Of a stretch of 64,000 nt of DNA, positions 21,953-44,757 are shown piece by piece. The notes under the pieces were generated by a model. It was not told the DNA's origin. It was given only the letters and a program-made list of their open reading frames with translations, and did not search any database. Source of the stretch: Paracoccaceae bacterium (lineage in GTDB: Bacteria > Pseudomonadota > Alphaproteobacteria > Rhodobacterales > Rhodobacteraceae); contig JAIOYF010000010.1 of the NCBI GenBank assembly GCA_021741245.1, forward strand, positions 105,485 through 169,484, written 5' to 3'. Every line of letters starts with the position of its first letter. Positions within the stretch are counted from its first letter, which is position 1. The translations under genes and the position numbers were made by a program.

Positions 21953-22426
21953 TTACTTCTCGGCCGAAGGGTTCAGTTGGTTCCAGGCAAAGGCGCGGCC
22001 ATCGGGAAAGATGGCGACAACGCGGTCCACATCGGTGTGGATATTGGCCTGCGACAGAAAGGCAAGCGCCTCGCCGCGCTCCAGCGCCTCGCCGATGGCG
22101 GTTGCGTCAAAGCAGTCAAACCAGCCGGGCGCGATCAGGGGGGTGGCCCCCTCATAGGCGACATAGGTTTCGGTCAGCATGGCCTGTGTCATCGGGGTGG
22201 TGAAGCAGGCGCGAAAGCGCAGCGGGCTGCTGTCGGCGTCGATCCCGGTGACGGCCTCGGCAAGGATCGGTTCGGGTTGGCCGCCCTCGATCGTGGTCAG
22301 GGTGATTTCGGCACCGGGCGTAAAGCTGACGGGCGAATAAAAGGCATAGACCTGCAGGTAATAGACTGCTGCCCCGACGATTGCTGCGCTGACCACGATG
22401 GACCCCACCAGATATTTCCCGTTCAT
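21953..22426 (-). CDS. Membrane-anchored DUF6446-type protein between glyQ and glyS
   Basis: A 157-aa protein starting [20 protein letters not shown], a single N-terminal membrane anchor, followed by a soluble domain with two cysteines ([19 protein letters not shown]) and the ending [12 protein letters not shown]. The ATG overlaps the glyQ stop by four bases, so the ORF track start at 22594 is inside glyQ and wrong. It resembles proteins of the DUF6446 group often found at this location in Rhodobacterales, sometimes mis-called histidine kinases; no kinase motif is present. Function is unknown. Confidence 0.8.
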
Positions 22427-23370
22427 GCTGCTGTTCCGACGGTGTCCAGATCGGCCCCCGCCTCGGTCAGCCGGAAGGCATCGGCGCAGAGTTTGGCCAA
22501 GGCCCGGACGCGACCGATATAGGCCTGCCGTTCGGTCACAGAGATCACGCCGCGCGCATCCAGCAGGTTGAACAGGTGGCTGGCCTTGATGCATTGGTCA
22601 TAGGCCGGGTGGGCCATGATGATGCGCTTGCCGGAATTCGGGTCCTGCGCCGGGAAGTCCAGCAGGCGCTGGCATTCAGCCTCGGCGTTCACAAAGTGTT
22701 GCAGCAGCATATCGGTATTGGCCCCATCGAAATTGTGGCGGGAGTATTCTTCCTCGGTCTGGCGGAAGATATCGCCATAGGTCAGCGGGATCGGCGACTG
22801 CGGATCGTTGAAGGGCATGTCCATGACGTGGTCAATCCCAAGCACGTACATCGCCAAACGCTCCAGCCCATAGGTCAGCTCACCCGAGACGGGGCGGCAA
22901 TCGTGGCCGCCGACCTGTTGGAAATAGGTGAACTGGCTGACCTCCATCCCGTCGCACCAGATTTCCCAGCCAAGCCCCCATGCGCCAAGGGTGGGGGATT
23001 CCCAGTCATCCTCGACAAAGCGGATGTCGTGCAGCGCGGGATCAAGGCCGATGGCGCGCAACGAGCCAAGGTAGAGCTCTTGCATATCGGGCGGGCTGGG
23101 TTTGATGATGACCTGATATTGGTAATAATGCTGCAAGCGGTTGGGGTTTTCGCCATAGCGCCCATCGGTCGGACGGCGCGATGGCTGGACGTAAGCTGCG
23201 GCCCACGGCTTGGTGCCTAGGCTGCGCAGGGTGGTTGCGGGGTGAAAGGTGCCGGCCCCCACCTCCATGTCATAGGGTTGCAGGATGGCACAGCCCTTGG
23301 TCGCCCAATAGCTTTGCAGCCGCAGGATGATTTCCTGAAACGAGCGTGGGCGTGTGGTCACATCTGACAT
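22423..23370 (-). CDS. glyQ: Glycine--tRNA ligase alpha subunit
   Basis: Catalytic class II aminoacyl-tRNA synthetase subunit that activates glycine. At 315 aa it is typical. Motifs include [72 protein letters not shown] and [24 protein letters not shown]17-TATGGA promoter lies about 45 bp upstream of the ATG. The operon order is glyQ, small membrane protein, glyS. Confidence 0.97.
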
Positions 23371-23443: not shown

Positions 23444-23545
23444 TGCGGGGCAAAGTCGCGTAAGGCCATGCGAAAAGCACTCGCATCGCGCCGCCCGCGC
23501 CTTTAGGGTGGTAATAATTTGGTTTTCAAGGGGTTGAAATTTGAG

Positions 23546-25303
23546 ATGAGACATCTGCGTGTTGTGGTCTGCGCCCTGTTGTCGCTGATTTGGGCCGGTG
23601 TGGCCACAGCCCAAGATCGGGCTTGGGTTCAAATTGAGGCGCACCCTACCTTGGCCGAGGCGGAACAGCAGGCCCGCGCTTATATGTCGGTTTTTCCCGA
23701 CGTGCAGGGCTTTCGACTTGGGTCGCGCTGGTATGGAATCGCCCTTGGCCCCTATTCCCGCGATGATGCGGCGGTGCGCCTGACCCAGTTGCGGCGCGAG
23801 AATCTGATCCCGGTCGATAGCTTTATCTCTGACGGCAGCAATTTCCGTGAGCAATACTGGCCGGTGGGCGGCACGCAATCTTCGCCCGTCCAGCCGTTGC
23901 CCGCAGCCCCTGCACCCGAAGCCGCTGCTACGGCGGTGCCGGCACCGACGGACCCTGTGATCGCAGAGCCGCGTGACGAAACCCCAGCCGAGGCGCGCCG
24001 ATCAGAGGCGCTGCTGACAGCCGATGAGCGCAAGGATTTGCAACGTGCCCTGCAATGGCAAGGGTTTTACAATGCCGCCATAGACGGGGCCTTTGGCGCA
24101 GGCACGCGGCGGTCGATGGCCGATTGGCAAACCGCCATGGGCGTGGAGCCGACGGGAATTCTGACCCAACGCCAACGCGGAACGCTGGTTGCCAATTGGC
24201 AGGCCGATCTTGCGGAATACGGCTTTGAGTCGGTCATTGAATCCGAGGCGGGGATTGAGGTCACGCTGCCCTTGGGCCTTGTGGTCTTTGACCATTATGA
24301 GCCGCCATTCGTGCATTTCGCCCCCAAGGTGGAGGGGGGGATGCGCGTGATCTTGATCTCGCAGCCCGGTGATCGCGCCGCGCTTTATGGGCTTTATGAT
24401 ATTTTGCAGACCCTTGCGCTGGTGCCGGTGGAGGGCGCGCGCAGCCGCAACGAACGCTCATTCGAGATCAACGGCGCAAATGCGACCGTGCAAAGCTATG
24501 CCTATGCCGAGTTGAGCCGGGGCCTAGTAAAGGGCTATCTGGTGGTTTGGTCGCCTGAACAGGCCGAAAAGGCGGGCCGGGTTCTGACAGAGGTGAAGGC
24601 CAGTTTCCGGGCCGTGGGCAACCGCGCCCTTGACCCCGGCATGGTTGCGATGTCGGACGCCGCGCGCCGCGGCTTGCTGGCGGGGTTGGAATTACGCCGC
24701 CCCAAATTCTCACGCTCGGGCTTTTATGTGGATGGCTCTGGTAAGGTTGTGACCAGTGCCGAGGCTGTGGCGCAATGTGGCCGCATCACGCTTGATGGGG
24801 TGACAGAGGCCAGTGTGACGCTGACGGATGCGGCGACGGGTCTGGCGGTGTTGACGCCCAAGACAGCCCTTTCCCCCCCGGTCGTGGCGGGGTTTCAACT
24901 GGCGGCGGACCGGATCGGGGCCGAGATTGCCGTGGCGGGCTATGCCTATGAAGACACGCTGCCCGCGCCGGTTGTGACCTATGGCACATTGGAAGATGTG
25001 CAGGGCCTGAACGGCGAGGCCGGGCTGAAACGGCTTGGGATTGCCACGCTGCCGGGTGATGCCGGGGGGCCGGTGATTGATGGCACAGGCGCGGTGCTTG
25101 GGATGCTGCTTCCGCGTGCAACGGGCAGCACACGTATCTTGCCCGAGGGGGTGGAGTTCGCTGCCGCGTCCAGCGCCCTTGTGGATGCCCTGCGCGCAGG
25201 GGGGGTGGCGACAACCGAGGCCCCGGCCGCAGGTGCGCTGGCGCCCGAGGATCTGACGCGCAAGGCGATGGCGATGACGGTTCTGGTCTCGTGCTGGGAA
25301 TAG
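23546..25303 (+). CDS. Periplasmic SPOR / peptidoglycan-binding / inactive trypsin-like protein
   Basis: A 585-aa exported protein with signal peptide MRHLRVVVCALLSLIWAGVATA. Residues about 27-100 look SPOR-like (WVQIEAHPTLAEAEQQARAY). A proline/alanine linker follows, then a PG_binding_1 domain at about 155-215 (LQRALQWQGFYNAAIDGAFG). The C-terminal about 180 residues have the layout of a trypsin-like protease, but the catalytic triad is lost: the usual NAHVV site reads TSAEAV, the DLAVL site reads TGLAVL, and GDSGG reads PGDAGGPVID. It is therefore predicted to be a non-proteolytic envelope protein. The ORF-track TTG at 23519 adds a short implausible leader; the ATG is preferred. Confidence 0.85.
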   Translation: MRHLRVVVCALLSLIWAGVATAQDRAWVQIEAHPTLAEAEQQARAYMSVFPDVQGFRLGSRWYGIALGPYSRDDAAVRLTQLRRENLIPVDSFISDGSNFREQYWPVGGTQSSPVQPLPAAPAPEAAATAVPAPTDPVIAEPRDETPAEARRSEALLTADERKDLQRALQWQGFYNAAIDGAFGAGTRRSMADWQTAMGVEPTGILTQRQRGTLVANWQADLAEYGFESVIESEAGIEVTLPLGLVVFDHYEPPFVHFAPKVEGGMRVILISQPGDRAALYGLYDILQTLALVPVEGARSRNERSFEINGANATVQSYAYAELSRGLVKGYLVVWSPEQAEKAGRVLTEVKASFRAVGNRALDPGMVAMSDAARRGLLAGLELRRPKFSRSGFYVDGSGKVVTSAEAVAQCGRITLDGVTEASVTLTDAATGLAVLTPKTALSPPVVAGFQLAADRIGAEIAVAGYAYEDTLPAPVVTYGTLEDVQGLNGEAGLKRLGIATLPGDAGGPVIDGTGAVLGMLLPRATGSTRILPEGVEFAAASSALVDALRAGGVATTEAPAAGALAPEDLTRKAMAMTVLVSCWE

Positions 25304-25349: not shown

Positions 25350-25379
25350 GAAAAAGGGCGCCCATGGGCGCCCTTTTGT
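25350..25379. terminator. Bidirectional terminator between convergent genes
   Basis: AAAAAGGGCGCC and GGGCGCCCTTTT form a hairpin of at least ten pairs around a CAT loop, with A and T tracts on the two sides. It lies between the convergent pseudo-protease gene and ilvC and can serve both strands. Confidence 0.85.
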
Positions 25380-25397: not shown

Positions 25398-26546
<1,149 letters not shown>

Positions 26547-43209: not shown

Positions 43210-44757
43210 ATGAAACTTAAGGCAATTGCAACAGCGGGGGTCGTGGCAAGCCTGTCACTTGTTCCGGCACAAACGGCACATGCGGATGCAGGCGATGCAA
43301 TCGCCGGGGCGCTGATCGGCGGCATCATTGGCCACGCCATTGCGAAAGATCAGCAAAAACGATCCTCCACGCGAAGATATACCAGAACGACAAAACCATC
43401 CATCTCGTCCGCGCAGCGCCAGCAGAACCGTGAGGTGCAGACGGCGCTGAACCATTTTGGCTATCCGGTCGGCACACCCGATGGGGCCATTGGCCCAAAG
43501 AGCCGGGCCGCCATCTCCAATTATCAGGCAACCTTGGGCTATCCGCCGACAGGTCAGATGACCGATTATGAGCGGAACTTGTTGTTGACGGCTTATCAGC
43601 GCGCGATTTATGGCGGGCCTCAGGTGGCACAGGTGGCGGCCACCCATCCCATGGGTATGAAGGGCCTGCTTTTGATGCAGCGCGACGAGATGGCGGGCCT
43701 TCCGGTGACGATGCCTGCCGCCCCGCAACCCTATGTCGTGCAGCCCGTGGCCCCGCCGGTTTACGCAGCCCAACCCGAGGCACCGCAGGCCTCGCGCGGG
43801 GTGGCAGGGGCCGGTCTTGTCAGCGCCTTGCCATCCTTGATGCCAGAGGAGCCCGTTCCGGCCGCTGCCCCATCGCTGCCCTCGTTCATGGGGTCCGGCG
43901 TGGCGCAGGTGTCCTTGGCCAGCCAGTGCAACAAGATCAGCCTGATGACCAACACCAATGGTGGCTATGTCACGGCCGCCTCGATGACAGACGCAGGATT
44001 CGCCTTGGGTGAGCAGTTCTGTCTGGCGCGCACCTACGCGATGGCCACGGGTGAGGAACTTGCAGCCAAGGTCGCAGGCTTTACGCCGCAGCAAATCTCA
44101 GAGCAATGTGCGGGCTTTGGCCCGGTTCTGGCCGAGCATGTCAGTTCCCTGTCGCTCAAGACCCGCGATGAGGTTTTGGCGGGAGTGAAGGGGTTCATTC
44201 TTGGGTCGGGCATGTCGCCTGCACAACTGTCTGGCACCGCTAAGGTCTGCCTTGGCGTTGGCTATACAACCGATGCGATGGAGGTTGCCGTCGGCTCGGC
44301 GCTGCTGCTGACCGCCATGGGCGAGACAGGCTATGCCGAATTGTTGGGCCATCACCTGAGCCAAGGGTTTGGGGCAACCGTGCGCCCGGATCTGGCGCTG
44401 GACTGGTATCAGATGGGTCTGGATGCCATGGGGCAGGGGGCTGCCATCTTTGCGCCCGGTCTGGCAGAGCGTCCGGATCTGATTCGCAAGGCGGCCTTTA
44501 CGATCGCGGGCCGTGCGGGTGACTTGGCGCCAGTTGTTCCGGCGGCCTTGCCACAGTTTGCAGTGGCGCCAGAACCCGCAGCCCCGGCTCTGGTGTTGGC
44601 ACAGCCCACAGCACCTTTGGCCCCGGTCGTCGCAGAAGCGCCTGCCGCCCTGGCCCCCACAGCCCCAGCTACGGTGGTTGCCGTCGCGCCAGAGGCTGCT
44701 GGCGCGCGGGTCGTCATGTCGGCGGCGAAACTGCCATTTCTGCTCTTTGGCAACTAA
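43210..44757 (+). CDS. Exported peptidoglycan-binding domain protein
   Basis: A 515-aa protein with signal peptide MKLKAIATAGVVASLSLVPA and a Gly-rich helix DAIAGALIGGIIGHAIAKD that may interact with membranes (glycine-zipper like). Residues about 70-130 form a PG_binding_1 domain (VQTALNHFGYPVGTPDGAIG). The rest contains a helical domain with paired cysteines (LASQCNKISLM, GEQFCLARTY) and Ala/Pro-rich linkers, and ends GARVVMSAAKLPFLLFGN. GAGAGG precedes the ATG. It is probably an envelope protein; no enzyme motif is visible. Confidence 0.8.
   Translation: MKLKAIATAGVVASLSLVPAQTAHADAGDAIAGALIGGIIGHAIAKDQQKRSSTRRYTRTTKPSISSAQRQQNREVQTALNHFGYPVGTPDGAIGPKSRAAISNYQATLGYPPTGQMTDYERNLLLTAYQRAIYGGPQVAQVAATHPMGMKGLLLMQRDEMAGLPVTMPAAPQPYVVQPVAPPVYAAQPEAPQASRGVAGAGLVSALPSLMPEEPVPAAAPSLPSFMGSGVAQVSLASQCNKISLMTNTNGGYVTAASMTDAGFALGEQFCLARTYAMATGEELAAKVAGFTPQQISEQCAGFGPVLAEHVSSLSLKTRDEVLAGVKGFILGSGMSPAQLSGTAKVCLGVGYTTDAMEVAVGSALLLTAMGETGYAELLGHHLSQGFGATVRPDLALDWYQMGLDAMGQGAAIFAPGLAERPDLIRKAAFTIAGRAGDLAPVVPAALPQFAVAPEPAAPALVLAQPTAPLAPVVAEAPAALAPTAPATVVAVAPEAAGARVVMSAAKLPFLLFGN

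Follow-up and report, generated by a model that had tools for sequence, protein, structure and literature searches.

A widespread Rhodobacteraceae protein with SPOR-like and PG_binding_1 domains that ends in a predicted pseudoprotease domain

MamO of magnetotactic bacteria is a trypsin-like pseudoprotease, in which the protease fold has been turned into a metal-binding activator (PMC4794232). PflC is an HtrA-like protein without a catalytic triad that acts as a scaffold in the Campylobacter flagellar motor (PMC12222027). The protein described here is encoded in a 64,000 nucleotide stretch of Paracoccaceae DNA (the window). Like MamO, it contains a bacterial trypsin-fold domain that appears to have lost catalysis and to come from active relatives; MamO went on to take over non-catalytic functions. 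MamO binds metal through a pair of histidines and carries a TauE transporter domain, whereas the protein in the window has SPOR, PG-binding and PsbP-like domains and no conserved His pair. With PflC it shares a predicted periplasmic protease fold without triad, but the structural use is that of PflC, which has two PDZ domains and is part of a lattice in the motor; here, neither a PDZ domain nor a link to a motor was found.

Denuded glycan, which is enriched at the septum, is what SPOR domains generally recognise (PMC6895207). The SPOR-domain division proteins FtsN, DamX, DedD and RlpA resemble our protein in the SPOR-like fold, which would be expected to bind denuded glycan. They differ from it in that the SPOR-like domain is here located N-terminally, directly after the signal peptide, and is fused to a putative pseudoprotease. 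The best sequence-profile match of the chymotrypsin-fold domain in the PDB is 3lt3, the S1 protease MarP (Rv3671c; E 1.4e-8); MarP is natively active, and 3lt3 is an engineered Ser343Ala mutant. MarP is not known to contain a SPOR or PG-binding domain. In the literature searched, which leaves out most subscription journals, we found no paper on an architecture combining SPOR with a pseudoprotease or trypsin-like domain. Its architecture is new within a known kind of protein, the bacterial trypsin-fold pseudoproteases.

The gene starts with an ATG at 23546, ends with the stop codon at 25303 (+ strand, as for all features within it) and encodes 585 amino acids; these bounds are exactly those given in the first-pass annotation. 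An alternative in-frame start is the TTG at 23519. From N- to C-terminus the protein consists of a Sec signal, a SPOR-like domain, a Pro/Ala linker, PG_binding_1, a PsbP/Mog1-fold domain and Trypsin_2. The full-length AlphaFold2 model, calculated with 77 aligned sequences, has a mean pLDDT of 91.2 and a pTM of 0.47, which makes the individual domains trustworthy but not their relative placement. The first-pass annotation had described a SPOR and peptidoglycan-binding protein with a dead trypsin-like domain. The analysis supports this description, with the first domain as SPOR-like, and adds the overlooked PsbP/Mog1-like middle domain. The regulatory role at the septum that the annotation also proposed would be a hypothesis.

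The putative Sec signal peptide comprises residues 1–22 (MRHLRVVVCALLSLIWAGVATA, followed by Q; 23546–23611). The predicted cleavage site has no lipobox Cys, and A22 and Q23 are conserved in 95–96% of the orthologues. Dinoroseobacter vesicles are rich in the SPOR protein Dshi_0924; a link to it was rejected because it is listed as an outer-membrane lipoprotein and ours lacks a lipobox. We did not use RSP_1880, a PG-binding protein found to co-precipitate with DalA and to be down-regulated by CenKR, because its identity with the R. sphaeroides orthologue was not established.

The signal peptide is followed by the SPOR-like domain (residues 24–106; 23615–23863). In this copy the score for Pfam SPOR (PF05036) is 14.4 bits and thus below the cut-off of 21, while 52 of 77 orthologues match SPOR at E values up to 0.1 (best 3.1e-7). 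In the AlphaFold2 model residues 26–95 have the predicted topology b-a-b-b-a-b, which is SPOR-like. The linker (residues 113–145; 23882–23980) is rich in Pro and Ala and is modelled with low confidence (pLDDT below 50 at 113–132). It leads to the PG_binding_1 region (residues 150–222; 23993–24211), in which residues 159–210 match PF01471 with an E value of 1.2e-11 and 45.1 bits, above the curated cut-off of 23. This domain was found in 77/77 orthologues, and the region also matches the PG-binding domain of SleB (6tci). Judged from these domains, the protein probably binds the cell wall. A second PG_binding-like match, in a 537 aa ORF, is found in the window at approximately 43417–43632 (+ strand; L003, contig C26:148901–149116 of the same genome).

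No Pfam family was matched by residues 224–360 (24215–24625). A separate AlphaFold2 model of this middle domain (pLDDT 95, pTM 0.90) yielded Foldseek matches to CyanoP (2xb3; E 2.4e-6, TM 0.65), Mog1p (1eq6; E 2.0e-4) and PsbP. We assign the domain to the PsbP/Mog1 fold on the basis of this predicted structure, with no sequence family matched.

The C-terminal domain (residues 384–585; 24695–25300) matches Trypsin_2 (PF13365) at residues 391–520 with an E value of 9.3e-11 and 43.1 bits. Since this exceeds the curated cut-off of 27.6, domain-based annotation would label the protein, which is present in about 85% of the sampled Rhodobacteraceae genera, as a peptidase. In Foldseek the model is matched best by DegS protease domains (E down to 2.6e-10) and also by other HtrA protease domains; the fold is chymotrypsin-like, and the different fold that the first-pass annotation had named as counter-evidence was not found. 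A PDZ domain was not matched in Pfam and the CW motif sits at the very C-terminus, which does not correspond to an HtrA/Deg protease.

All three positions of the triad are occupied by other residues: E406 (24761–24763) at the catalytic His position, G432 (24839–24841) at that of Asp and A506 (25061–25063, in the motif GDAGGP) at that of Ser. This confirms the threefold substitution noted in the first-pass annotation, in which the His position had been placed one residue off: the active-site sequence TNAHV corresponds to TSAEA, so that His is replaced by E406 and not by Ala. In an alignment of 170 proteins, 166 of them distinct because some genomes are present in two collections, the His position is occupied by E (102), D (32), A (19), Q (8) and others, that is, by an acidic residue in 134/170 and never by His. 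Position 432 is G in 162/170, and the Ala for Ser, the conservation of which had been a point to check, is present in 138/170. Two rows retain Asp and two retain Ser; the latter include the distant member L141 (A-S-S). An intact H-D-S was found in none of the 170, and the hallmark of an active S1 serine peptidase is missing throughout. The substitutions are therefore not specific to this copy, as the family alignment shows the same states, and the isolated decay next to intact relatives that the first-pass annotation had considered was not seen. Judging from these residues, the dead domain cannot use the S1 mechanism.

Two cysteines, C411 (24776–24778) and C583 (25292–25294), are present in all 170 aligned rows, C583 being part of the CW motif that is common to the active homologues. 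They may form a disulphide. An invariant His was not found within the protease domain of the aligned orthologues.

Among 150 Rhodobacteraceae genomes from nearly as many genera, about 127 carry an orthologue (E 1e-25 or better), and five further sampled genera gave no match to the gene. In an order-level sample, in which all genomes drawn belong to Rhodobacteraceae, 179/198 genomes have an orthologue. The divergent glyQ (22423–23370, − strand, in the window) adjoins the gene at 77 of the 80 orthologous loci retrieved, including all loci with at least 600 bases upstream. In most orthologous loci a convergent gene for a TrkH-type transporter, as read from its translation, is located downstream.

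The dN/dS values obtained by counting for the dead domain are 0.06–0.10 in the two closest pairs and 0.06–0.66 over the ten closest, similar to those of the other domains of the protein; the dead domain is under purifying selection. We reject isolated decay or a sequencing artefact, since no orthologue has an intact triad and the domain evolves under this constraint. Fold residues are conserved in both the dead and the active set (G392, T403, C411, A434, G480, G504, G507, G508, P509 and C583), and the residues altered in the dead set belong to the active site (H, D, S, A499, Q502 and N505). G432, P438, R496 and D505 are nearly fixed in the dead set; D505 is conserved in 98% of the orthologues and is N in active relatives. 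The conservation pattern is apparently that of a domain which is retained but repurposed.

Outside Rhodobacteraceae, a search of 385 genomes sampled from the class at E 1e-20 did not recover the full architecture and matched the C-terminal domain alone. Of the 25 class-wide homologues, 24 have complete triads and one is truncated with all covered catalytic residues kept, and the active ones share both the first and the C-terminal Cys with the dead family. The loss of the triad is far beyond chance, with the same positions dead family-wide and intact in the homologues outside. In a maximum likelihood tree built without the triad columns, 34 family proteins, all dead, form one clade with 100/100 support opposite the active ones. 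Because the tree lacks a biological root and has long branches for several distant rows, it shows one dead group and not its exact sister. Family-wide loss of the catalytic residues in one clade with a fold kept under selection would classify the C-terminal domain as a pseudoprotease.

Close active proteins are the alphaproteobacterial Trypsin_2 proteins ending in ECW and the paralogues L240, L239 and L235; they share the protease domain and its Cys pair with the dead family. L240 has a complete triad and resembles the dead family further in its N-terminus, SPOR-like by eye, its PG-binding-like region and its middle domain; its genome (G052) encodes the dead protein as well. L239, L235 and L238 combine PG-binding-like, middle and active protease domains. 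In contrast to the dead family, the active ECW proteins and paralogues have an intact H-D-S and a patchy distribution: of 150 family genomes, only 10 contain relatives of the active architecture, and some of these relatives are dead or truncated. The PG-binding and middle region (161–361) is collinear with that of the active paralogues (profile comparison, E 6.6e-7), but the middle domain alone gives no significant match to theirs (E 0.31), so its homology is based on domain order. A profile of the N-terminal part of the active paralogues had no match at E 1e-6 among 289 class genomes, which shows little because this sample has no positive control.

Three paralogues of 470–510 aa with PG-binding, middle and trypsin-like domains (L251, L252 and L253) have no triad, and L249 has no protease domain. 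The triad loss in L251, L252 and L253 is apparently independent of that in the main family. Since L253 sits inside the active part of the tree, inactivation occurred more than once in the wider group.

In genus g24 the protease domain itself is missing. Besides the PG-binding and middle domains, the glyQ-linked orthologue in genome G023 (L234:1243–2874, − strand) has two SPOR-like repeats, and it stops short of the protease domain. It is flanked by glyQ on one side and a TrkH-like gene on the other and thus occupies the orthologous locus. A relative of the short form was found in 10/10 g24 genomes searched; the locus itself was read in G023. The domain is therefore dispensable in at least one lineage. 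Across Rhodobacteraceae it is widely kept but not indispensable. Altogether, this is a clean natural example in which several stages of pseudoprotease evolution are visible: active paralogues with the same architecture, an ancient inactivation under selection, separate inactivations of paralogues and the absence of the domain in g24.

We consider it probable that the protein is a peptidoglycan-anchored pseudoprotease, the dead domain of which is a non-catalytic scaffold for binding partners. In our best reading the Sec signal would export the protein to the periplasm, where the SPOR-like and PG_binding_1 domains would fix it to the cell wall; SPOR would probably give it a preference for denuded glycan at the site of division. 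The PsbP/Mog1-like and chymotrypsin-fold domains would act as protein-binding modules. The latter would be derived from an active S1 protease with the conserved Cys pair and would have been stripped of every catalytic residue before Rhodobacteraceae radiated or early in that radiation. The scaffold would hold a partner at the wall rather than cut it; the partner might be a wall enzyme or some other protein of the envelope. Precedents for such a non-catalytic use of the fold are MamO and PflC. We infer this partner-binding role for the dead domain, which would most likely bind protein, perhaps in the old substrate cleft. Points against this reading are the missing protease domain in g24, the genera that lack the gene, the likeness of the middle domain to PsbP, which is one of fold and not of sequence family, and the sub-threshold SPOR score of this copy. 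The SPOR-like domain is the one feature that suggests a septal location of the pseudoprotease. More tentatively, and with some doubt on our side, the protein might be a near-universal, family-specific part of division or wall remodelling, with the dead domain docking proteins on septal peptidoglycan. A septal location would make it a new division factor specific to Rhodobacteraceae, a group that departs from E. coli in its envelope and division proteins (compare DalA, PMC10470522).

The dead domain could also regulate an active protease, either a paralogue of the same architecture or one of the DegP/HtrA type, as MamO promotes MamE-dependent proteolysis (PMC4794232). Active paralogues with the same domain order do exist, one of them, L240, together with the dead copy in G052 (the others are L239, L235 and L238), but the 10/150 genomes with relatives of the active architecture compare with about 127/150 for the dead protein. 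In the genome analysed here no active paralogue of the same architecture was found, and its only other trypsin-domain match is a MORN-repeat protein (L002, contig C11). Pairing with such a paralogue was thus rejected as a general rule; being absent from most genomes, it is unlikely to be what the dead domain generally regulates, and we regard regulation of a protease as a whole as unlikely. The trypsin domain of L002 has an intact triad and the same Cys pair.

The domain might instead be a passive remnant without a binding role, with only the SPOR, PG-binding and PsbP-like part at work. That g24 keeps the glyQ-linked gene without it and that triad or domain were also lost in L249, L251, L252 and L253 would fit, but a mere remnant would not need nearly fixed residues such as G432, R496 and D505, and its dN/dS would not be expected to be as low as that of the neighbouring domains; we think this quite improbable. 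Least of all do we expect a different catalytic chemistry, in which the acid at 406 and D505 form a new active or metal site. The acidic residue in 134/170 and the 98% conservation of D505 are compatible with such a site, but A, Q, S, T, G, M, K and R also occur at position 406, position 506 can be A, V, T, I, E, F and others, and an invariant His is missing from the domain, which makes it very hard to believe.

In the window the downstream neighbour is ilvC (25398–26531, − strand), which is convergent and located where most orthologous loci have the TrkH-like gene, pointing to a local rearrangement. A terminator-like hairpin lies between the two genes (25352–25377, + strand); it is weakly supported, because one was found and 2.3 are expected in shuffled sequences. 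In genome G023, the active paralogue L235 (L235:1502–3082, − strand) directly adjoins ftsK, which might be a hint of a link to division.
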